Source: Fundidesulfovibrio agrisoli
GTDB taxonomy: Bacteria > Desulfobacterota > Desulfovibrionia > Desulfovibrionales > Desulfovibrionaceae
DNA length: 64,000 nt
Assembly: GCF_022808715.1 (NCBI RefSeq)
Contig: NZ_JAKZKX010000006.1
Span: forward strand, 62,001 to 126,000
Direction of reading: 5' to 3'
Of the stretch, positions 1,611 through 12,405 are shown piece after piece. Positions within the stretch are counted from its first letter, which is position 1. Each line of letters starts with the position of its first letter. The notes under the pieces were generated by a model that was given only the letters and a program-made list of their open reading frames with translations, did not search any database and was not told the origin of the DNA. The translations under genes and the position numbers were made by a program.

Positions 1611-1737
1611 CAGCCTGTTGGCACAACCGCTCATCAATCCGGGGGCAGGATGGCGGAGCCTCGCCTCTTTCTTTTAGATTCGATTCGGGCTAAACAAAGA
1701 ATGAACGGATTTAATGCGGAAGGAGGCGGAAAGCCGG

Positions 1738-2310
1738 ATGGAATTGATGAAGGCGATGCGAACTCGGCGGAGCATCCGCAACTTCCAGCCTACCCCGGTG
1801 CCGCAGAAGTTGATCGAATCTCTGCTTGCGGCAGCGATTGAGGCCCCATCTCCTAAGAACGCTCAGCCCTGGCGCTTCGTTGTGGTGGCGCAGAAGAGCC
1901 GCGACGCGTTGTTCGCCCGTATCCGCGTGTTGGTAGAAGAGGAGTTGGCCGCAGGGCGGATCGGCGTGTGCGTCCGGGCCACCGTCCGGGCCATGGAGGA
2001 GGCTCCAGTTTTTGTCCTGGTGTATAACCGTGCCACCGCGCGCTACAGCATGGAGAAGGACCCCGTGCTTGCACGCGTCATCGATGTCCAGAGCATAGGG
2101 GCCAGCATCCAGAATATGCTGCTCGCGGCCCAGGAGAAGGGCCTCGGAACGCTCTGGATATGCGATCTGCTCGATGTCGATCCTGTCCTGCGCCTGCTCC
2201 AGACGGAAGACGAACTCGTCGCCGTCATCGCTTTGGGGTATCCGGTTGGCGACCCGCCCCGCCCCCCGCGATGCGCCCTGGCGGACATAGTCACCTGGCA
2301 AACGGAGTAA
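1738..2310 (+). CDS. Nitroreductase-family flavoprotein
   Basis: A 191-residue protein of the nitroreductase fold, which binds FMN and uses NAD(P)H in reductions or substrate dehydrogenations. Visible family features are the N-terminal MRTRRSIRNFQ motif (FMN phosphate contact), EAPSPKNAQPWRF (the usual A-P-S-x-x-N-x-Q-P-W motif) and the C-terminal ALGYPVGDPPRP, usually ALGYP-E. The start at 1738 is chosen over 1714 because AAGGAGG lies just upstream of 1738 and the usual N-terminus begins there. It is the first gene of a plus-strand trio with a radical SAM and an ATP-grasp gene, so a role as a tailoring oxidoreductase in a small-molecule pathway is a reasonable inference. The substrate is unknown. 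Confidence 0.85.
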   Translation: MELMKAMRTRRSIRNFQPTPVPQKLIESLLAAAIEAPSPKNAQPWRFVVVAQKSRDALFARIRVLVEEELAAGRIGVCVRATVRAMEEAPVFVLVYNRATARYSMEKDPVLARVIDVQSIGASIQNMLLAAQEKGLGTLWICDLLDVDPVLRLLQTEDELVAVIALGYPVGDPPRPPRCALADIVTWQTE

Positions 2311-2378: not shown

Positions 2379-3554
2379 ATGGCGATCGCTAAACTGCTGT
2401 CCCACCTTGGGCTGGCCCTGCGCAAGGGCCGTCCGCTGGTACCGGCCTCCTGCGGGCACCGGATAGTCGTGGCCGACGCCCAGCGGCGCTTTGTCCAGAT
2501 ATGGCTGCGCACCCGCGGCTGTCGTCACGACATACTCAACGGCGGTTGCACGATCTGCAATTACTGGGCGAGCACCGAGCCCCAAGCCGACGAGATGGTC
2601 GCGGCCATGGGGGCCGCGCTGGACAGCCTCGCTTTCGAGCCGGAAATGATCGTCTTGAGCGCCTCGGGGAGCTTCCTGGACGCCTGGGAGATCGCCCCGC
2701 CCGCCCGTCGGCGCATCCTGGCGCTGCTGCGGGCGCGCTGCCCCAAAGCCTCGGTCATCATCGAGACCCATCACAACACGGTTACGCCGGAGTGCATCGC
2801 CGACTGTTCCGAGATCCTCGGGCCCAGGTGGACGGTGGAGATGGGGCTGGAGTCTGCCTCGCGGCAGGTGCTGCGCTGCTGCATCAACAAGCCGCTGACG
2901 CCTGACGGATTTTTGAGGACTATCGAGGCGATCCGAATGGCTCCGGGGCTGTCGAGCATCGCGAACGTGGCCCTGGGGGCGCCCTTCCTCAGCGGGGAAG
3001 AGATCATAGCCGACGCGGTTGCGACCGTCACCTGGGCCCTTGGCCACGGGGTGGACGAATGCGTGCTGTTCCCGATGAACCTCAAACCGCATACCCTGAC
3101 CTACTGGCTGCATGGGCAGGGGCTTTACCGGCAGCCTTCGCTGTGGGTGCTGGCCGATGTCTTGGCCGCCTTGCCGGCGGAGCTGCTTCCCCGGGTCAAC
3201 TTCGCCTGGCACCGGGTAGACCGGGGCCAATATTCCGAATGGGACGAGGGGATCGTCGCCCCCATGACCTGCCCGAACTGTTACCCCCGAGTGATGGAGC
3301 TGTTGGAGCAGTATCTTGCGGGCGGCTCTCGCGGTGAACTTGCGCAGGCGCTTCAGCGGCAGCAGTGCCCCTGCCGCGACCAATGGAACGCGGCGAAGCA
3401 CGTGGACCAGCCCCTTGGCGACAGGCTGTTGCAAGGCTACGAGCGGGCCGCGGTGACGATATTGGGGGAGGATTACTGGGCGCGGCACGGCGCGGCCCTG
3501 CGCGAAGAGCTGCAACAATTAATGGAGCGAGAAGGCCCCCCCGGATTGGAGTAA
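2379..3554 (+). CDS. Atypical radical SAM protein (RaSEA/Elp3-like)
   Basis: A 391-residue protein with an N-terminal cysteine motif CX8CX2C (C48, C57, C60, in GCRHDILNGGCTIC) instead of the usual CX3CX2C. This spacing and context (LRTRGC...GGCTICNY) resemble the archaeosine-synthase radical SAM group (TIGR01210, RaSEA) and the wider Elp3-like class. VLSASGSFLDAWEI and IIETHHNTVTPE match the SAM-binding barrel, and VEMGLESAS is the conserved E-x-G-x-E-S strand. Two further Cys pairs occur near the C-terminus (TCPNCYP and QCPCRDQW) and may bind a second metal. There is no archaeosine pathway here, so the substrate is unknown. No good ribosome binding site precedes the ATG. Next gene: ATP-grasp, after 35 bases. 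Confidence 0.75.
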   Translation: MAIAKLLSHLGLALRKGRPLVPASCGHRIVVADAQRRFVQIWLRTRGCRHDILNGGCTICNYWASTEPQADEMVAAMGAALDSLAFEPEMIVLSASGSFLDAWEIAPPARRRILALLRARCPKASVIIETHHNTVTPECIADCSEILGPRWTVEMGLESASRQVLRCCINKPLTPDGFLRTIEAIRMAPGLSSIANVALGAPFLSGEEIIADAVATVTWALGHGVDECVLFPMNLKPHTLTYWLHGQGLYRQPSLWVLADVLAALPAELLPRVNFAWHRVDRGQYSEWDEGIVAPMTCPNCYPRVMELLEQYLAGGSRGELAQALQRQQCPCRDQWNAAKHVDQPLGDRLLQGYERAAVTILGEDYWARHGAALREELQQLMEREGPPGLE

Positions 3555-3589
3555 GGGCGCTGCGACTGGCTTGGAACGGAGAACATGTG

Positions 3590-4894
3590 ATGGACGCACA
3601 GAAGAGAGTGGCCCAGATCGTTACGGCCCTGCAGGGCAGGCAGCTTGTCTACTTTGGCACGCGCGGCGCGGATGCGGAGCCCTTGCTCAAGATCCCGAAC
3701 TTTCAGGTGATCGTTTCGCTCATCGCCCCGCTGCAAGCCAGCACCGTGCGCGAGACTTGCCTGGAGACGCTGACGAGCGAACGGGTCGAACTGGACGACT
3801 ACACCATCGACCACGACACCAGGCCCGTTGTGAGCGAGATGCGGCGGGCCCTGCTCCGTGAATTTGAGGGGCCGAGCGCGCTTCTCGCTTACCGGCCCTG
3901 CGCCTTCCTGTCTTCGGCCTGGTTCCCCAGGTCGGACCGGGTGCAGTACCTCGGCCTCTTTCACGGGCACCAGTCATGCTTCGAGCACAAAGCCTGGATG
4001 GAAACGCAGCTTGCGGCCTTCGGCGTGCCCGTGCTGCCCTGGCGATTTTTTGCCGACGAAGAAGCCGACATCATCAGGGAATGGGTCGCGGTGGAGCCCA
4101 TCGTCTTGAGGGCGAACAGGAGCGACGGCGGCCTCGGCGTCCGTTTTGTGCCGAATCCTGGGGCGCTTGAGGTCCAATGGCCCTCCCACGGCGATGGGTT
4201 CCTCGCCGTGACGGAGTATCTCTCCGACAGCATCTCCCTGAATATCAACGCCTGCGTGTTTGCAGACGGCAGCGCGTCCCTGCATGGGCCGTCCGTGCAG
4301 CTCATCGGCATCCCCGCCCTGACCAGCCGCACCTTCGGCTACTGCGGCAACGATTTCGGGGCTGCGGGCTTGCTGGAGCCGAGCATATTGGACAGCTTTG
4401 AGAACTTGACGCGCCTGACGGCGCGCTGGCTGCGAAGCCAGGGCTACCTGGGTGTCTTCGGGGTGGACGCCATCGTGCACAAGGGCGAGGTCTACCTGAC
4501 GGAGGTGAACCCGCGGTTCCAGGGGTCGTCCCTGCTCTCGGCCCGGGTGGATGGGGAACTCGGCAGGTCCGACGTCTTCCTGGAGAACCTCGCCGCATTC
4601 TTGGGGCTGCCGGCACAGGAGCAGCCGAGGCTGCGCGACCTGGCCGCCGGGCAACCGCCGCTTGCCCATGCGGTGGCCCACAACCTCGCGGGGCAGACCG
4701 TCCGGCTTACGGCGGCTCCCCACGTCCCCGACGGTGTGGAATGCCGGCTGCTCCCGGATGTCGGTGTGGCGATTCCTAACGACTGCATCACCTTCGACGC
4801 GGTCTTCCCCGGACCCATCACGGCCGATGGCTCGCGGCTCACGGATGAGGCCGCGGCAGCCATCGGCGCATTGAAGCAGGGCGTCAACTGCTAA
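3590..4894 (+). CDS. ATP-grasp domain ligase-like protein
   Basis: A 434-residue protein with an ATP-grasp fold. The second half contains the ATP/Mg signature: VEPIVLRANRSDGGLGVRFV (the lysine/glycine-loop strand, with R-A-N in place of a more common K), LAVTEYLSDSISLNIN, and VYLTEVNPRFQGSS (the E-x-N-P-R Mg-binding motif). ATP-grasp enzymes join a carboxylate to an amine, thiol or other nucleophile through an acyl phosphate. The start at 3590 follows GGAG by 8 bases; a longer upstream reading has no such site and overlaps the previous gene. Its TAA overlaps by 4 bases the stop codon of the convergent nSTAND gene. It probably ligates a product of the neighbouring radical SAM/nitroreductase steps; acceptor and donor are unknown. 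Confidence 0.8.
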   Translation: MDAQKRVAQIVTALQGRQLVYFGTRGADAEPLLKIPNFQVIVSLIAPLQASTVRETCLETLTSERVELDDYTIDHDTRPVVSEMRRALLREFEGPSALLAYRPCAFLSSAWFPRSDRVQYLGLFHGHQSCFEHKAWMETQLAAFGVPVLPWRFFADEEADIIREWVAVEPIVLRANRSDGGLGVRFVPNPGALEVQWPSHGDGFLAVTEYLSDSISLNINACVFADGSASLHGPSVQLIGIPALTSRTFGYCGNDFGAAGLLEPSILDSFENLTRLTARWLRSQGYLGVFGVDAIVHKGEVYLTEVNPRFQGSSLLSARVDGELGRSDVFLENLAAFLGLPAQEQPRLRDLAAGQPPLAHAVAHNLAGQTVRLTAAPHVPDGVECRLLPDVGVAIPNDCITFDAVFPGPITADGSRLTDEAAAAIGALKQGVNC

Positions 4895-7047
4895 AACGCA
4901 GTTTTGCGGGCGCTTTTCTTTTCTTGAGGGGGGGCAATCCTGGTGAACTCTGTCCAGTGCAGGCAATCAAAACGCTCTCTGTCCTTCTCGTCGAAGTCCT
5001 GGAAGAGTGAGCCATAGATATCGAACTTGTGTGCGCTGATCTGCTGGTTTGCTTGCCCCCCAGCGGGCTTGAACGTGTAGAGCTGCGCGTAGTGAGCTTT
5101 GCTTTTGTTGAAGTGCAGGGCGTTCTTCAGGCGTACGCCACGGATAACGGCGCTCGAAAGATTGCAGTCGATAAAAGCGACGTCATCCCATCTCGTGCCT
5201 CTGATGACTGTTCCAAGCATGGCGCAGTGATCGAACTTTACATGTTTAAATGAGCCTTTCAGGATAAAGGCACCGTTGATCTTACAGTCTGTAAAAATAC
5301 AGTTCTTAAACGTGCACTTTGTAATGAAGCTGGCGTCAAAGGAGCACTTCCTGAAGTGGACATCGGTGATCGTTAAGCCGTCGACGAAGCATCCGTCCCA
5401 TCGTAGCCGTTCCAAATCCTGTTTCCTGATGTGGTTCATTCTGATAATCTGCTTTCCGTAAACGCCGATGTCTGGAACCAGCACATCATCTTCTCTACGC
5501 CTCGGGTCGGTGCACCACTCCGTCAACGCCGAGGCATAGCCGTCGTGCTGCAAGGACAAGATCGACGATTGGAACTCATCCTGGCCGCAGTTCTTAAGGA
5601 TGTTCTTGTCGGCAAGTTGGTCGACAGCGGTGCACGCTGCTGCCCAAAGTTTTATGGTGAGATCGTTGTAACCATCATCCGATGTGAGGGGCTTGTTCTC
5701 CTTGAGCAGTCTTCTTATATTGTCCAGCATTTTGGCTATTTCTTGCTTTTCTGCTTTTTTCCCCTTTTTGCTGCCGCCCTTTAAGCACATGGTCAGTTCT
5801 TCGCGAATGGCATGGAATATGAGATTCCCTCGGGTGATGTGGCTCTTGTAGCCCCTGGGGGTGGCCAGCACGCTGCCCATATTCGCGGCTACACGCCGGA
5901 TAAGCGGTCCGTCTTCGCCGAGCCCATTAAAGGCCCTGTCTATCCAACGCAGCAGCGCGCCGATGTAGAGGTCTTTGTCTTGTCCATTGAGCCGGGGCTC
6001 CGCTTCGTACAAGGCATGTAGATATTTGTCGAGGTGGTCTTTATCTATCACAATTTGACATTCGTCATCAGCTAATCCTTGGCTTTGCAGTGAATCATAG
6101 GCACGGTCATAGATATCCGTCAGAAACGCCTGCGCCGTGAGCATCTCAACTGTGGCTGTGTTTTTATCAATCCCATCGTGATGGGTAAATGAGTTCGCCC
6201 ATGTGAGCACTGTGTCCATCTCAGCGATGCCGATCTTGAAACGGCCTGACGACGAGGCAACGTTGACCAGCGCTTTTATCGCATTGTCCCAAGTCAGCGG
6301 ATAAAGGTGGAAAATACGAGGGCCAAGCGGCAAGTACATGTTCTCCAGCTGGCGAAGCTTGCTCATGTACTCCTCGCGAAGGGAAATGATGACTTTGACG
6401 TCTGAGGTTTTGATCAGTGAGGCCAGCGTGGAGAGTGCTTCTGTCAGGAATGCGCGCCCGGCGCTCACGCCGCTGCCCATGAATTCCTCGGCCTGGTCAA
6501 CGATCAGTATGAGCTTGTTCTCCGGCAGTGCCGTCTTGATATCCTCGATGTACTGTCCCAATAACGTTGCCTGATCCGTATGTAGCGTCTCGTCCTTGTA
6601 CAGACTCAATACCGGGTCCAGCGCATCGAGATCTTTCTTTAACTGCTTGATGCCGACCAAGTCTGAGTTTTCACGGACAAGTTTGCCGAGTTCTTCAAGT
6701 GCGGTGGTAACAGCCTCCCGAAAGATGTTCGCAGAATCGCCGATGGAGAGGCCGCCCCCCGCAGTGTCGCTCTGTTGGGCAATGCTTCCCCACGTGCCGA
6801 CATAGAGAGCGAAGCCCATGCTCGCAATGTCCCCTTCGCGCCAATAGCGAAGCGCGGGGATCAAACCCGCGTTGATGAGTGAAGTTTTGCCGGCCCCGCT
6901 TTCCGCCGTGATGATCGTCAGGTCTTGGATTCTGACTTTCTGTATCAAGTCCCGCAGTTCGGCAGTGCGACCATAGAAATTCTTGGCATGGACTTCGGAG
7001 CAAGGCACCGGGCCGACAAATGGGTTGTTGCTTTCGTCGTTACGCAT
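4891..7047 (-). CDS. nSTAND ATPase with C-terminal pentapeptide-like repeats
   Basis: A 718-residue protein. Residues 9-70 have the nSTAND1 layout: NPFVGPVP, a helix ending FYGRTAEL, then Walker A (AESGAGKTS, 48-56) followed by LINAGLIPALR. Walker B is LILIVDQAEE (179-188), and KVIISLREEYMSKL resembles the sensor strand. A helical region follows, with a Lys-rich patch (425-435). Residues about 551-650 form pentapeptide-like repeats with alternating F/C core residues (CSFDASFITKCTFKNCIF), a right-handed beta-helix type of sensor. STAND proteins are switch ATPases that oligomerise when triggered, and many are anti-phage sensors. Its ATG lies inside the end of the TIR/SIR2 gene (8-base overlap), indicating co-translation. 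The triggering ligand is unknown. Confidence 0.82.
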   Translation of the reverse strand: MRNDESNNPFVGPVPCSEVHAKNFYGRTAELRDLIQKVRIQDLTIITAESGAGKTSLINAGLIPALRYWREGDIASMGFALYVGTWGSIAQQSDTAGGGLSIGDSANIFREAVTTALEELGKLVRENSDLVGIKQLKKDLDALDPVLSLYKDETLHTDQATLLGQYIEDIKTALPENKLILIVDQAEEFMGSGVSAGRAFLTEALSTLASLIKTSDVKVIISLREEYMSKLRQLENMYLPLGPRIFHLYPLTWDNAIKALVNVASSSGRFKIGIAEMDTVLTWANSFTHHDGIDKNTATVEMLTAQAFLTDIYDRAYDSLQSQGLADDECQIVIDKDHLDKYLHALYEAEPRLNGQDKDLYIGALLRWIDRAFNGLGEDGPLIRRVAANMGSVLATPRGYKSHITRGNLIFHAIREELTMCLKGGSKKGKKAEKQEIAKMLDNIRRLLKENKPLTSDDGYNDLTIKLWAAACTAVDQLADKNILKNCGQDEFQSSILSLQHDGYASALTEWCTDPRRREDDVLVPDIGVYGKQIIRMNHIRKQDLERLRWDGCFVDGLTITDVHFRKCSFDASFITKCTFKNCIFTDCKINGAFILKGSFKHVKFDHCAMLGTVIRGTRWDDVAFIDCNLSSAVIRGVRLKNALHFNKSKAHYAQLYTFKPAGGQANQQISAHKFDIYGSLFQDFDEKDRERFDCLHWTEFTRIAPPQEKKSARKTAF

Positions 7048-9262
7048 ATTTTTTACCTTTAGGAAGATCTACGAACTCTTGGAACTTGTCGACTTCGGCC
7101 GCGAAGTCGTTCAGGTCCATCGCAAGGGGCTTGACACGGAGCCCTGTAAGCAATTCACTGTCCAGGCCGTCCCGGTGCCTGCAGCCGATGCTGAGCCGCT
7201 CCTTATTGCCGTCTCCCTCTCCAACCCACACGTTACGATGAATTCCCAGTATTCCGTCCATGTCATCCAACGGGTAACCAAGAAAACACTTGACTCTATC
7301 TACGTTGTCGAGCTGCTGTTTCAGCCACCGGGGCTCACCAAGGTCCGAATCGGACAGCTCCTGTACAAAGTCAAGACTTGAAAGCAGTAAACGGTTCTCA
7401 GCACTCGACTTCAATGCGGTTGGGGTATCCGGGGCGCCGATGTCGTAGATGTCGTTGGCCCTTGAATTGTGGAATGGCGACCCTCTGTACTTCACGATCA
7501 AAGGGCCACTTAATGCTTTGTAGATTTCTGATTCGACTGTATTGGATAGTGGGAATAAATAGTATCTGTCGCTGTTTTCTTTGTGCACTCGCAAGAACCA
7601 ATATGTTTTGGTGTCGTTTACTGCCTGCACAGGGTAAAGGACAGAGTACGTAACGTGCTGCAAGCATTTTTCTAGCTCTTCATCGATATTCATTGAGACA
7701 ACAATCGGGTATGGTTTCTGCGCAGCACTAACCGATTCTTCGTAAGCTGGTCGGTCGCCAGCCGATTCTTCGTAAGCTGGTCCGTCGTCGTCAACTCGAA
7801 GTGTCTCCGCGCATAGTAAATATGAATTCCAAAGAAGCTTTGCCATGGCACGGTAGAATTGCGTCGGCCCAGAGCTCATTTTGCGGTACAGTTTGCGGTG
7901 CATATGCTGCGTACATTGTGCGATTGTTAGATTTAAATCTTTTATTTGACTCTCTTTGCCGTTGCACTCCGCAGTTTGGATGGCAGCGGTGGTTCCAAAC
8001 GGTATCCGCACAAAGTGTTTCGTGGTTTGGCATAGGGCCAAACAGAAGTCGATCTCGTCCGGCTTCGGGAATATCGGCAGGTCGAACCGCATCAAGTGCC
8101 ACAGCAAATCGCTAAGCCAATCTAGCTGCGACAGAGAGAGGTGTACCTCGTGCATGTTTACATCCGTCTCCTTACCCTTGAAGACAGCGTTCAGAAACAA
8201 TTCCAGCTTGGCCTCAATATGGCGTGGCCCCATACACCCTTTGCTGTGATCATGGTAAGAACAGAAGCTATTTGTTTTGCCGCAGCTTGCCGCAAACGCC
8301 TTGGCCGACTGCAAAGCAGTCCGCAGTGACTTAATGTCCGGATCATCCGCCTCCGTTATGACGACCCGGTAGGCCTTGGCGTCGATGATCCCCTTGCAGC
8401 GGTTGAGCGATTTGCCTAGGAGTCGCGAGGCGGCGGCCCCGGCCAATGCGACGGCGACACGAAGTTCAAAGAGATCCCCTGCCGCCTCTTCTTCCGATAC
8501 AGCACCGCCATGAAGATCTGTCTGGTCGCCGAGGTCTGGGGTGTGCGATCTGACGACGGCTTTCAGATATTCCCTGTTGGCCTCTTGGTTCTCTGGGTTG
8601 ACCTCCTCAAGCCGTTCTCGGATGATATCCAGTCGAGCCCCGAGGGTCTTAAGGTGGGGCTCCCATTCGTCGCGCAGACCGTAGCAATCCGGGCCGATGT
8701 AAGGAACGAAGAGCCCTTTGGCTATAGCTTCCTCATATTCAAAAAGAGGACCGTCATTCGCGCTCCTTCGCTTGATTCCGAAATGCTCCAGGATCACCAG
8801 AGCCATTGTTTCGTATGTGAGAGGCTCTTGAACGACTTTGTACTGCGGCGACTTAGCGGCGCCAAGCGAGTACAATTGCCTCTTCTCTTTTCCTAAAATC
8901 TTCCGGAGAAGTCCTCTGCAGCCTCCCTTTTCCTCTGGTAAGTCACAGCTTTCCACCAGCAATGGAAAGATTTCACGATCTTTGTCGTCATTTATATATA
9001 TGTGTTGCAACTCTTCAAATATAGGGCCGCTATCTAAAAATCTTTTTGTGATAAGTAAAACATGTGCTTTAGCTTTTTCAATGCCTTCTTTTATTTCTGT
9101 GTCATATCTGCTTTTCGAAAATGTCAAAGAAGAAATCACTTCAACGTCTACTGATGCATTTTTTTTCAGTTCATACTCTAAGCCTCTTACATGCTTTTTC
9201 TGCTCGTCATCATGGCACCAGCTGATCCACACCGAAAGTTTATCCTTAGATTTCTCTTCCAT
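7040..9262 (-). CDS. TIR domain plus SIR2-like domain protein (candidate immune effector)
   Basis: A 740-residue protein. Residues 9-105 form a TIR domain: VWISWCHDDE (strand A), SRYDTEIKEGIEKAKAHVLLIT, and FLDSGPIFEELQHI, where E83/E84 sits at the NADase glutamate position. Residues about 178-680 look SIR2-like: a degenerate nucleotide loop LFVPYIGPDCYG (184-195), PLIVKYRGSPFHN (587-599) where active sirtuins have a HG motif, and FLGYPLDDMDGIL (660-672), matching the F-x-G-Y-S-x-x-D strand. The linker holds a 10-residue duplication (PAYEES at 495-500 and 505-510). TIR and SIR2 domains both bind or cleave NAD+; the SIR2 part lacks canonical catalytic residues, so the TIR is the likelier effector. 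It starts 15 bases after the carbamoyltransferase gene and overlaps the nSTAND gene. The 5' end is AT-rich. Confidence 0.75.
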   Translation of the reverse strand: MEEKSKDKLSVWISWCHDDEQKKHVRGLEYELKKNASVDVEVISSLTFSKSRYDTEIKEGIEKAKAHVLLITKRFLDSGPIFEELQHIYINDDKDREIFPLLVESCDLPEEKGGCRGLLRKILGKEKRQLYSLGAAKSPQYKVVQEPLTYETMALVILEHFGIKRRSANDGPLFEYEEAIAKGLFVPYIGPDCYGLRDEWEPHLKTLGARLDIIRERLEEVNPENQEANREYLKAVVRSHTPDLGDQTDLHGGAVSEEEAAGDLFELRVAVALAGAAASRLLGKSLNRCKGIIDAKAYRVVITEADDPDIKSLRTALQSAKAFAASCGKTNSFCSYHDHSKGCMGPRHIEAKLELFLNAVFKGKETDVNMHEVHLSLSQLDWLSDLLWHLMRFDLPIFPKPDEIDFCLALCQTTKHFVRIPFGTTAAIQTAECNGKESQIKDLNLTIAQCTQHMHRKLYRKMSSGPTQFYRAMAKLLWNSYLLCAETLRVDDDGPAYEESAGDRPAYEESVSAAQKPYPIVVSMNIDEELEKCLQHVTYSVLYPVQAVNDTKTYWFLRVHKENSDRYYLFPLSNTVESEIYKALSGPLIVKYRGSPFHNSRANDIYDIGAPDTPTALKSSAENRLLLSSLDFVQELSDSDLGEPRWLKQQLDNVDRVKCFLGYPLDDMDGILGIHRNVWVGEGDGNKERLSIGCRHRDGLDSELLTGLRVKPLAMDLNDFAAEVDKFQEFVDLPKGKKYA
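7732..7787 (-). repeat. Two-copy 30-base in-frame tandem duplication
   Basis: CCGATTCTTCGTAAGCTGGT occurs at 7732-7751 and again at 7762-7781 with a period of 30 bases (10 codons) inside the TIR/SIR2 gene. The copies encode PAYEES-type units in the acidic linker before the C-terminal part of the SIR2-like domain. Near identity at DNA level points to a recent duplication. Confidence 0.85.
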
Positions 9263-9277
9263 GGATGCTCTATGACC

Positions 9278-10198
9278 TCACTGTTTGCAACGACCATATT
9301 GGAACAAAAGAGCCGCCATCCGCGCCCACAGAGCGTTGTCGCTCTGTTCGAAGTATGTGGCGTGGCGGGACTGGTCCACGTCTACGGCGATCTCGTCAAT
9401 TCTGGGAAGCGGGCACATGATGATGCCGTGCGACGGCAGGGCCTCGAGGGTCTCCCGGTACACGGTGAAGCGCTTCCGGAGCTCCAGCGAGAAGCAGGGC
9501 TCGCTTTCCGGATTCGGCATGCCCGCGACATAGAGCACGTCCAAATCTGCTGCAATAAGTTCAGGATAGACGGACACGGAAGATTTGGCAACATGCAATA
9601 ACGCTTCGCCTGTTGCCTCGCGCCCGGGTGGAGCCATGAGCCGCAGCTCCGCCGGTGGCCAGTGGCGCATCGTTTGAAGCAGCGAGCGTGCGGCCCTCGA
9701 CGTGCACAGGTCGCCGACGAGGCCTATTCGCAGGCCCTCCAGCCGTCCAAAGCGGTTCTTGATGTGGAAGAGGTCAAGCAGGGCCTGCGTCGGGTGGTGT
9801 TCGCACCCGCAACCCGCGTTGATGACAGGCGCCACTGACGCGCGCATCGCCGCGTGGAGGGCCGGGGTCTCCGCATGGCGCATGACGATCATGTCGCAGT
9901 AGCCGGAAACGGCCCGGATGGTGTCCTCCAGAGACTCGGGGCTCGGAGCGCGCTGCACTTCACGCGCTTCGGTCACAATGACCGTGGACCCGCCCAGCCG
10001 TTTCACGGCCGCGTCAAAACCGACGCGGGTTCTGGTGGACTCCTGGAAGAAACAGAGCCCGACAACCTTTCCCGCCATTTCCGTTCCCATTGGGCCAACG
10101 GAGCATAGCCGGGCGGCCCGGTCCAGCATGTCCTCAATCTCTTCCTTCCGCAGGTCCGCGATGGAGAAGAAGTGCCGGAGCATGCTGGATGCGCTCAT
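9278..10198 (-). CDS. Aspartate-carbamoyltransferase-like enzyme with altered acceptor site
   Basis: A 306-residue protein of the aspartate/ornithine carbamoyltransferase fold. Carbamoyl-phosphate residues are kept: STRTR (54-58), R107 in IVMRH, HPTQ (135-138) and PLPR near the C-terminus. Acceptor-side residues known from E. coli PyrB are not: the mobile loop carrying Ser80/Lys84 reads REVQRAPSPESLEDT, and the strand carrying Arg229/Gln231 (RVQKER) reads AGMPNPE. HPLPR is CPLPR. It therefore probably carbamoylates something other than aspartate, or only binds carbamoyl phosphate. The start at 10198 is chosen because its ATGA overlaps the stop of the upstream radical SAM gene and the family begins there; a longer reading gives low-complexity sequence. 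The TIR/SIR2 gene follows after 15 bases. Confidence 0.8.
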   Translation of the reverse strand: MSASSMLRHFFSIADLRKEEIEDMLDRAARLCSVGPMGTEMAGKVVGLCFFQESTRTRVGFDAAVKRLGGSTVIVTEAREVQRAPSPESLEDTIRAVSGYCDMIVMRHAETPALHAAMRASVAPVINAGCGCEHHPTQALLDLFHIKNRFGRLEGLRIGLVGDLCTSRAARSLLQTMRHWPPAELRLMAPPGREATGEALLHVAKSSVSVYPELIAADLDVLYVAGMPNPESEPCFSLELRKRFTVYRETLEALPSHGIIMCPLPRIDEIAVDVDQSRHATYFEQSDNALWARMAALLFQYGRCKQ

Positions 10199-11280
10199 GC
10201 CGTGGCGTCCTGCTGGGGAAAGGTCAGCGTGTTGTGCTGGCAGGGGGCGCATTGCGGGCCAAGCCGCACGCCGCGCGCCTCGCAGATATCGGTGGCGCGC
10301 AGGAACAGTTCCTCGAAGAACTCGGCGCTGGGCGGATGCAGGTCCTGCAGGGGCGTGCCCGGAGCGGGTCGGAAAGGGCTGAGCACAGGGGTGCATCCCC
10401 GTTCGGCCAGGGCCTGCACGCCGGCCAGGGTGCTCTCCATGGGCTCCAGCCCCACCATCAGCATGGATCGGACCTCCGCCCCGAAGAGCTCAACCCCCTT
10501 CCCGATGGAAGATAGCCACGCCTTCATCGGGATGGCGTGCTTTTCCGGCACGATCTTCCTGCGCAAACCATCATCGAAGAGTTCCAGATTGATGGAGAGC
10601 CCGTGGAGGCCTTGGGCGCGCAGCGCGCGCAGGTCGAGGACTCCCTCCAGGGGGAGCATCATGATATCCACGGGGACGCCGGGAAAGGCCGCCAGCACCT
10701 GCTCGTATACGTCGCGCAGATAGCCGAAGTCCGTGTCCTTGGGCGTTCCGCCGGAAATCAGCACGTGTCTGGCCGGCAGCAGGGGGTCTTCCAGGGCGAC
10801 ACGGATCGTCTCGATGAGCAAGCCCGCATCCTTGAGGCGATACTCGTAGCGGCGTGGCAGGTCGCAGAAGGTGCACCTGTTCGCGCAGCCGGAAATGGGC
10901 GAGATGCGCACCCGGTCCGTGTGGGTCAATCCATAGTGGTTGTAGGGCTCCCCGGCGGAGTTGTTCCGCGAGCCGTAGGCCGGTACGGGTATGGGTTCGG
11001 CGGGCCACTCATGTTGCGGCGACCGCAGCACGAAGGCCTCCCCCGTCCAGTCCAGCAGGTGCGGCGAGGCGTTCACAAAATTCGGGTTGTGGTCGGCTAT
11101 GGGGGCGTTGACGTAGATGTCGCCCGGAAGGCGGATCGGGATTCCCGAAGTGCTGGCGTAGTCCGCCAGCGTCAGGACCCCTCCGGGGGCCTGGGAGAGC
11201 AATTCGGTCCGGGCCGCAGCCGAGATGGCCATGCCTTGCGCAAGCAACTGAAACTTGATGCGATGCAGCATTGTGAGCAT
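10195..11280 (-). CDS. Radical SAM protein with C-terminal CXXC motif
   Basis: A 361-residue radical SAM protein. The 4Fe-4S/SAM motif is CANRCTFC (C132, C136, C139; canonical CX3CX2C) after VRISPISG. LISGGTP (174-180) is the GGE-like SAM-binding motif, and GLSINLELFDD and MLMVGLEP are barrel strands. The C-terminus has GPQCAPCQHNTLTFP (C344, C347), a tail seen in some BioB/HydG-like enzymes. The N-terminal 120 residues hold an uncharacterised domain. It is the first gene of a four-gene minus-strand operon and overlaps the carbamoyltransferase start by 4 bases (ATGA). TTGACA at 11316-11311 lies only 31 bases before the ATG, and no ribosome binding site is visible, so the mRNA may be nearly leaderless. 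The substrate is unknown. Confidence 0.8.
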   Translation of the reverse strand: MLTMLHRIKFQLLAQGMAISAAARTELLSQAPGGVLTLADYASTSGIPIRLPGDIYVNAPIADHNPNFVNASPHLLDWTGEAFVLRSPQHEWPAEPIPVPAYGSRNNSAGEPYNHYGLTHTDRVRISPISGCANRCTFCDLPRRYEYRLKDAGLLIETIRVALEDPLLPARHVLISGGTPKDTDFGYLRDVYEQVLAAFPGVPVDIMMLPLEGVLDLRALRAQGLHGLSINLELFDDGLRRKIVPEKHAIPMKAWLSSIGKGVELFGAEVRSMLMVGLEPMESTLAGVQALAERGCTPVLSPFRPAPGTPLQDLHPPSAEFFEELFLRATDICEARGVRLGPQCAPCQHNTLTFPQQDATA

Positions 11281-11938: not shown

Positions 11939-12266
11939 TTGGAAAATGCCAATGAAAGTGTGTGTAAGTTGTCCAGAAAGAATGCAGTTTGCGCTTTGGC
12001 ACTAGTGCTGCTCTGCAATTGTGAGGGGCTACGTCTTGGGCATTGCAACGTCCGTAAGTTGTTCATGGGGCGCTATTCAGAGGTGTATGATGTAGTGTTT
12101 CATATTTTATGGCATTATTCTCTCTGCCGCACAGTGTCTCAGCCACCGGAGGGGGGCCTTGAGCGTGATTCAGGTGCTGTTAGGCCGCGCGAAGTTGACC
12201 ACTACGCGGACCTACCTTCATGATTCCTCAGAATCATTGTGCGATGCGAGGAAGCTCTTGGGGGGG
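11939..12266 (+). pseudogene. Tyrosine recombinase (integrase) remnant next to tRNA-Thr
   Basis: Fragments of a phage-type integrase catalytic domain are visible in order. LLCNCEGLRLGHCNVRKL (12005-12058) matches the box I region T-G-x-R-x-G-E, with its Arg kept. VFHILWHYS (12095-12121) matches H-x-L-R-H with Arg changed to Trp. After a frameshift near 12156, LSVIQVLLGRAKLTTTRTYL matches Q-x-L-L-G-H-x-x-x-x-T-x-x-Y, with His changed to Arg and the nucleophile Tyr kept. Boxes I and II are only about 25 residues apart where roughly 100 are normal, so there is also an internal deletion. The remnant ends about 60 bases from the 3' end of tRNA-Thr, the usual place for an island integrase. Confidence 0.65.
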
Positions 12267-12293
12267 AGGCTAAAAGCCCCACATAAAGGCAAA

Positions 12294-12320
12294 GGGGTTA
12301 CGACATGCAATCGTAACCCC
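12294..12320. terminator. Hairpin downstream of tRNA-Thr
   Basis: A perfect 10-base stem, GGGGTTACGA / TCGTAACCCC, with a 7-base loop lies 9 bases past the tRNA 3' end. Read on the minus strand it is followed by CTTTGCCTTTATG, a weak U-tract, so it can serve as the tRNA terminator. Confidence 0.55.
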
Positions 12321-12329
12321 CTGAATTCC

Positions 12330-12405
12330 TGGAGCCAGCGAGGGGACTCGAACCCCTGACCTGCTGATTACGAATCAGCTGCTCTACCAACTGAGCTACG
12401 CTGGC
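12330..12405 (-). tRNA. tRNA-Thr (CGU)
   Basis: A 76-base cloverleaf on the minus strand. The acceptor stem pairs GCCAGCG with CGCTGGC, followed by T and an encoded CCA. The D arm is AGCTCAGTTGGTAGAGC and the T arm GGTTCGAGTCCC. The anticodon stem-loop is CTGA-TTCGTAA-TCAG, so the anticodon is CGT, reading the Thr codon ACG. Its 3' end faces the island with the decayed integrase, making it the probable attachment site. Confidence 0.95.

Follow-up and report, generated by a model that had tools for sequence, protein, structure and literature searches.

The question raised by this locus of Fundidesulfovibrio agrisoli is whether a carbamoyltransferase that resembles aspartate carbamoyltransferase (ATCase), but is encoded in accessory DNA, still carbamoylates aspartate or uses another acceptor. 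We analyzed a stretch of 64,000 nucleotides, here referred to as the window, in which the gene concerned is a real open reading frame:

9278–10198, minus strand: ATCase-like carbamoyltransferase of 306 amino acids, with ATG at 10198 and TGA at 9278–9280

Both halves of the family are recognized in its product above the Pfam cut-offs (OTCace_N, 136.4 bits; OTCace, 52.5 bits). The best NCBI model is TIGR00670, the ATCase equivalog, whose score of 221.1 bits narrowly fails the cut-off of 236.95, and the nearest solved sequences found with HMMER are ATCases. An AlphaFold model built on 45 sequences has a mean pLDDT of 87.6 and a pTM of 0.88, with pLDDT below 50 at residues 1–6 and 78–85, the 80's loop being the sole internal part of this kind. 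When the predicted model was compared with solved structures, the 50 Foldseek rows and the 50 VIA-align entries listed (Z 34.5–37.6) were all ATCases, and the absence of other family members among the 50 matches listed excludes nothing. Chain A of E. coli PyrB (1D09) aligns with it over 293 residues at 2.3 Å, with 35% identity and Z 36.4. As modeled, the protein has the ATCase fold, and the two domains are present both in this comparison and as the two Pfam halves. Among the motifs of the transcarbamylase family, SxRT, the R105-type arginine and HPxQ are all present, and HxLP reads CPLP. Since HxLP is described as common among transcarbamylases but with some variations in a section of a 2015 review (PMC4581275), we retain the protein in the family on its other features. 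The marks of genuine ATCases, namely RxQ, Ser80/Lys84 and a score above the TIGR00670 cut-off, are absent, and so are those of the OTCase branch (OTC, PTC, DPTC and DBTC), namely the DxxxSMG or TRWQ-type 240's loop and HCLP/HDLP.

The motifs that bear on the substrate sites are as follows, with E. coli PyrB residues as reference:

10028–10039, minus strand: STRT motif, S54–T57, carbamoyl-phosphate site, kept
9935–9955, minus strand: 80's loop, Q82-R-A-P-S86-P-E88, with S80 changed to Q and K84 to S
9878–9880, minus strand: R107, equivalent to R105, carbamoyl-phosphate site, kept
9785–9811, minus strand: C130-G-C132-E-H-H135-P-T-Q138, HPTQ kept, with D129 changed to C and S131 to C
9692–9706, minus strand: C165-T-S-R168-A169, R167 kept, with K164 changed to C and T168 to A
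9506–9523, minus strand: 240's-loop motif, G226-M-P-N-P-E231, replacing RVQKER; register unsure by three columns
9401–9415, minus strand: C262-P-L-P-R266, replacing HPLPR

These residues were compared in 67 distinct relatives, obtained from 100 sequences including the query after removal of duplicates and of relatives covering fewer than 220 query residues, with the PyrB of the host retained as an exception. The sequence-only reading had held that STRT, R105 (R107 in the query), HPTQ and PLPR are kept and that the Ser80/Lys84 loop and the Arg229/Gln231 strand are changed, and the alignments confirm both statements. The query shares with PyrB S52–T55 (its S54–T57), R105 (R107), H134 and Q137 (H135 and Q138), R167 (R168) and P266–R269 (P263–R266). 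Unlike PyrB, it has Q82 for S80, S86 for K84, A169 for T168, G226 for R229, P228 for Q231, P230 for E233, E231 for R234 and C262 for H265, together with Gln for E50 and Cys for D129. Each replaced residue is kept in most of the 67 relatives: S80 in 64, T168 in 62, D129 in 57, K84, R229, Q231, R234 and E50 in 65 each, and E233 and H265 in 66 each. Only two rows lack K84 and R229, one for the ArgF of the host (L002) and one for a protein from a staphylococcal plasmid (L057). Where at least 85% of the relatives share a residue, the query has it at 50 positions and another residue at 21, and because the differences fall largely within the named motifs, the pocket looks rebuilt and the whole protein does not look decayed. 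Judged from these alignments, the changed residues are not chance drift.

For the register we relied on pairwise HMMER alignments with four ATCase chains and on MAFFT alignments, and the two agree. Two smaller MAFFT alignments introduce a gap three columns long within the 240's loop and place N229/E231 opposite R229/Q231, so that the exact partner in this loop is unsure, yet in these alignments RxQ is missing in either register (GMP or NPE). Q82 might be taken for an OTCase-type carbamoyl-phosphate glutamine, but in the alignment the OTCase Gln is one column off and the loop is poorly modeled, which makes this reading tentative at most. C130, C132, C165 and C262 are a separate observation: no relative has a Cys at those columns (0 of 65–67), and the loops bearing them presumably line the active-site cleft, as in ATCase structures. 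The four cysteines may form a metal site or may be coincidence, and we note them as a lead.

The changes fall on residues whose roles are described in parts of PMC4581275. The beta-carboxylate of aspartate is held by R229 and Q231, its alpha-carboxylate is positioned with the help of R167 and K84, and according to Table 1 of the same review S80 and K84 are also carbamoyl-phosphate ligands in ATCase. RxQ is given as the marker motif of ATCases (a section of PMC4581275; Table 1 of PMC4016543). Because the RxQ residues for the beta-carboxylate and K84 are replaced, aspartate is very unlikely as the acceptor, and the motifs point with high probability to an enzyme that does not use it. The retained equivalent of R167 makes an acceptor with one carboxylate plausible. 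The earlier proposal that another acceptor is used is therefore well supported at the sequence level, with RxQ gone and a PyrB and an ArgF encoded elsewhere in the genome, and the two sites need a finer description than the one it gave. The aspartate site, which it called lost, has R229, Q231 and K84 replaced but keeps R167 and P266–L267; the carbamoyl-phosphate site, which it called intact, keeps STRT, R105 and HPTQ but has both ligands S80 and K84 replaced, and is, by its residues, mostly but not wholly intact.

In the host genome (3,941,278 bases in 52 contigs) there are three carbamoyltransferase matches, namely this gene, ArgF and PyrB. The host PyrB carries the KGES and RLQLER motifs, and its gene is followed by an open reading frame, dihydroorotase-like by eye and incomplete at the end of the stretch; the gene after ArgF encodes argininosuccinate synthase. 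The gene under study is a third copy, not a relocated PyrB. In a maximum-likelihood tree of 68 rows that include no pseudo-ATCase, it stands alone on a long branch that leaves the ATCase side at its base, apart from the host PyrB, with an exact position that is unsure (long-branch warning). That the protein is still an aspartate carbamoyltransferase with an odd pocket, a spare PyrB, has very little probability: ATCase gives its best family score, the closest solved structures listed are ATCases and R167 is kept, but R229, Q231, K84, T168 and R234 are all replaced, the score lies under the equivalog cut-off and the genome has another PyrB. Elsewhere in the phylum, one genome has three tandem genes, one ArgF-like, one for PyrB and one further gene (L018, 246–3678).

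No ortholog was found in the sampled genomes (overlapping draws from one phylum), in the viral contigs and plasmids searched or among the phage matches listed. At E 1e-46, two of the 395 phylum genomes match, one being the host and the other giving a PyrB with TRIQKER. Of the 199 family genomes, 13 match at E 1e-30, the host among them; the other 12 belong to one genus, and 11 of them carry RVQ(K/R)ER, with one sequence incomplete. The number rises to 97 of 199 at E 3e-23, where 17 new loci and four stretches were read and proved to be ArgF-type in 18 cases and PyrB-type in three. The assembled genome contigs searched gave two relatives, both PyrB-like. In viral contigs, none was found by single-sequence search, while an alignment search gave 175 relatives, the best 80 of 175 being PyrB-like where examined, and DNA patterns for the CPLPR-type and GCGCEHHPT motifs gave 0 matches each. 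Among plasmids, 189 records matched, of which four were opened (L057–L060). All matches whose motifs were read are PyrB-like or ArgF-like, save the staphylococcal plasmid protein. A literature search of partial coverage found no paper on the query protein.

That staphylococcal protein, from Staphylococcus epidermidis plasmid p2 (WP_064657912), resembles the query in keeping STRT and HPTQ and in losing K84 and R229/Q231, but has only 26.5% identity to it and different loop letters. By its motifs, it is a second, distant case of the same sort of loss. On the plasmid (L057, 2826–4632), a ThiF gene is followed by the ATCase-like gene, with an MFS transporter gene near and no radical-SAM protein annotated nearby; the ThiF/ATCase-like locus is possibly a small-molecule gene set.

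A closer published parallel is the pseudo-ATCases 1–3, which the relevant parts of PMC4016543 describe as ATCase-branch paralogs keeping STRT and HPTQ but without RxQ, placed in the tree at the root of ATCase class II; ureidoglycine carbamoyltransferase (UGTCase) activity is reported there for one group. The query is likewise a paralog with STRT and HPTQ but no RxQ, from a genome that also encodes a genuine PyrB. In Table 1 of that paper, group 1 has HPLA with AIA, AIS or SIA, group 2 has H[ST]LP with GX[SC], and group 3 has HSLP with VXP. Unlike all three, the query has CPLP and GMP, with a partial likeness in G as in group 2 and P as in group 3. Compared by these published motifs, the query is of the pseudo-ATCase sort yet outside groups 1–3. 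We therefore regard it as quite improbable that it is a UGTCase or another published pseudo-ATCase acting in purine or hydantoin breakdown. The type of change and the ATCase branch are the same, and the R167 equivalent is kept as in UGTCase (Table 1 of PMC4581275), but CPLP and GMP match none of the three motif sets, and the Ser and Lys that the same table gives for UGTCase at the S80/K84 places of the 80's loop are missing from the query. Moreover, the pseudo-ATCase context is purine breakdown, whereas that of the query is radical-SAM, ATP-grasp and TIR genes, and the scan of seven island genes found neither carbamate kinase nor allantoinase, the neighbors that mark a UGTCase gene, and no asparaginase or hydantoinase.

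Transcarbamylases with other acceptors have precedents, namely UGTCase on the ATCase branch and DPTCase and DBTCase of antibiotic clusters (sections of PMC4581275 and PMC4016543). Like DPTCase and DBTCase in the viomycin, zwittermicin and padanamide clusters, the query, from the ATCase branch, has perhaps also been recruited to a small-molecule pathway with another amine acceptor; those two enzymes belong to the OTCase branch and have HDLP and TRWQ-type motifs according to part of PMC4581275, which the query does not have.

The surroundings of the gene were examined for such a pathway, and contain the following features:

10195–11280, minus strand: radical-SAM protein (NF045502 variant_rSAM, 129.7 bits, cut-off 125; CxxxCxxC by eye)
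7040–9262, minus strand: TIR-domain protein, its gene separated by 15 bp from the end of the carbamoyltransferase gene, GC3 0.56
4891–7047, minus strand: nSTAND1 NTPase with pentapeptide repeats, overlapping the TIR gene by 8 bases, GC3 0.65
3587–4894, plus strand: ATP-grasp protein (ATP-grasp_3, 29.4 bits, cut-off 23.2; start codon chosen manually)
2379–3554, plus strand: radical-SAM protein, distantly RaSEA-like (TIGR01210, 111.9 bits, below the cut-off of 212.15)
1714–2310, plus strand: nitroreductase-family flavoprotein (profile match)
12330–12405, minus strand: tRNA-Thr(cgt), where the island probably ends on the right

The stop of the upstream radical-SAM gene overlaps the carbamoyltransferase start by 4 bases, and the operon of nitroreductase, RaSEA-like radical-SAM and ATP-grasp genes is convergent to the carbamoyltransferase operon. 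The five enzyme genes have GC3 values of 0.77–0.84, against 0.56 and 0.65 for the TIR and STAND genes and 0.87–0.96 for seven chromosomal genes to the right. Indirectly, this suggests that the five enzyme genes are one set into which TIR/STAND was inserted; judged by GC3, the ATP-grasp gene probably belongs to the same set as the carbamoyltransferase and TIR/STAND is probably a separate module. The accessory location, proposed earlier, is borne out, and the locus seems to be an island ending at the tRNA-Thr. A sister genome also has this tRNA-Thr; to its right, about 5 kb of different sequence comes before the match resumes, and the 20 kb taken there gave no match to any of the seven island proteins. 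To the left of the window (L019, 10706–17785) lie genes for a RelA_SpoT and RyR protein, an AAA and M41 protease and a protein with only sub-threshold SLOG-like matches, which are probably in the same island. Two short open reading frames were also observed in the window, one at 637–1083 with an N-terminal TIR part, probably a remnant, and one at 12159–12359, beside the tRNA-Thr, that by eye resembles the C-terminal end of a tyrosine recombinase.

Relatives of the neighbors are few and distant. Besides the host, 11 of 247 phylum genomes have a relative of the upstream radical-SAM protein, and two each have relatives of the RaSEA-like protein and of the ATP-grasp protein (L165 and L166), in all cases at most 33% identical. 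There was no match to the query carbamoyltransferase near the 11 radical-SAM relatives (short loci, with larger stretches for nine), around the RaSEA-like relatives in the stretches searched, or around the ATP-grasp relative L166. A candidate at L165 (23% identity, E 1.6e-19) was rejected, as it reads as an ordinary ArgF several genes from the ATP-grasp relative; so were Streptomyces plasmid clusters with a RaSEA-like relative, where another kind of carbamoyltransferase is annotated and the set is therefore different. Both ATP-grasp relatives (L165, 477–2895; L166, 128–2589) adjoin a PLP enzyme that is threonine-synthase-like by eye, and the genomes that carry them (G220 and G257) are also the only two of the 247 besides the host with a RaSEA-like relative, on other contigs.

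The gene immediately downstream raises another explanation, that the protein is an idle carbamoyl-phosphate binder serving as a sensor or regulator for the TIR/STAND genes in a defence operon. The short distance of 15 bp to the TIR gene, which has the same orientation, the overlap of TIR and STAND, the RelA_SpoT-RyR and AAA-M41 genes to the left and the loss of S80, K84 and H265 would all fit. A simple scan for patterns revealed nothing resembling a terminator between genes on this strand, so that co-transcription with the TIR gene is possible. We nevertheless consider this explanation unlikely: the GC3 of TIR/STAND differs from that of the carbamoyltransferase, STRT, R105 and HPTQ are fully kept, which would be unnecessary for an idle protein, and PADLOC gave 0 families at E 0.01 for the carbamoyltransferase and for its radical-SAM neighbor. 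The overlapping TIR and nSTAND1-pentapeptide genes of low GC3 (4891–9262) look like a two-gene defence module in themselves; in PADLOC the TIR protein has no match and the STAND protein weak matches, and a search of 297 phylum genomes at E 1e-8 turned up no relative of the TIR protein outside the host.

A resistant OTCase adjoins the phaseolotoxin genes. By analogy, the query could be a self-protection copy that soaks up an island-made ATCase inhibitor or carbamoyl-phosphate analogue, as a paralog of an essential enzyme within an apparent small-molecule gene set. A protective copy usually retains the protected activity, but the aspartate site is lost here, and the odds of this are very poor.

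The best explanation is, in our view, that the protein is an active N-carbamoyltransferase for a non-aspartate acceptor in a small-molecule pathway, with a probability of roughly 0.55. Carbamoyl phosphate would bind at STRT, R105 and HPTQ, and the rebuilt 80's and 240's loops would accommodate another amine as acceptor; this amine probably has one carboxylate, which R168 (equivalent to R167) would bind. The neighboring radical-SAM, ATP-grasp and nitroreductase enzymes would supply the acceptor as an intermediate, and its carbamoylation would yield a ureido (N-carbamoyl) metabolite. The residue counts, the ATCase fold, the host PyrB and ArgF, the tree, GC3, the published precedents and the staphylococcal protein count in its favor. 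As no ortholog was found, no conserved gene neighborhood backs the pathway; the next downstream gene is TIR, not a pathway enzyme, and the enzyme genes form two convergent operons instead of a single unit, grouped only indirectly by GC3. Activity itself is not certain, because S80, K84 and H265, in or beside the carbamoyl-phosphate site, are lost. A more far-reaching version seems very unlikely, namely that a fourth ATCase-branch class (CPLP and GMP, four Cys), together with two radical-SAM enzymes, an ATP-grasp ligase and a flavoprotein, produces a novel ureido compound that TIR/STAND senses or needs. If the TIR/STAND pair did sense or depend on such a compound, this would be a metabolite-based defence system.

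For annotation, the best family score would name this protein an aspartate carbamoyltransferase, which is very probably wrong. A section of the 2015 review (PMC4581275) states that a significant number of sequences without the essential motifs may be new transcarbamylases whose function is not known. The present protein is a clear case of such motif-less sequences, with an acceptor pocket that appears rebuilt and neighbors that suggest a small-molecule pathway, and for these reasons its acceptor could be found by direct assay.
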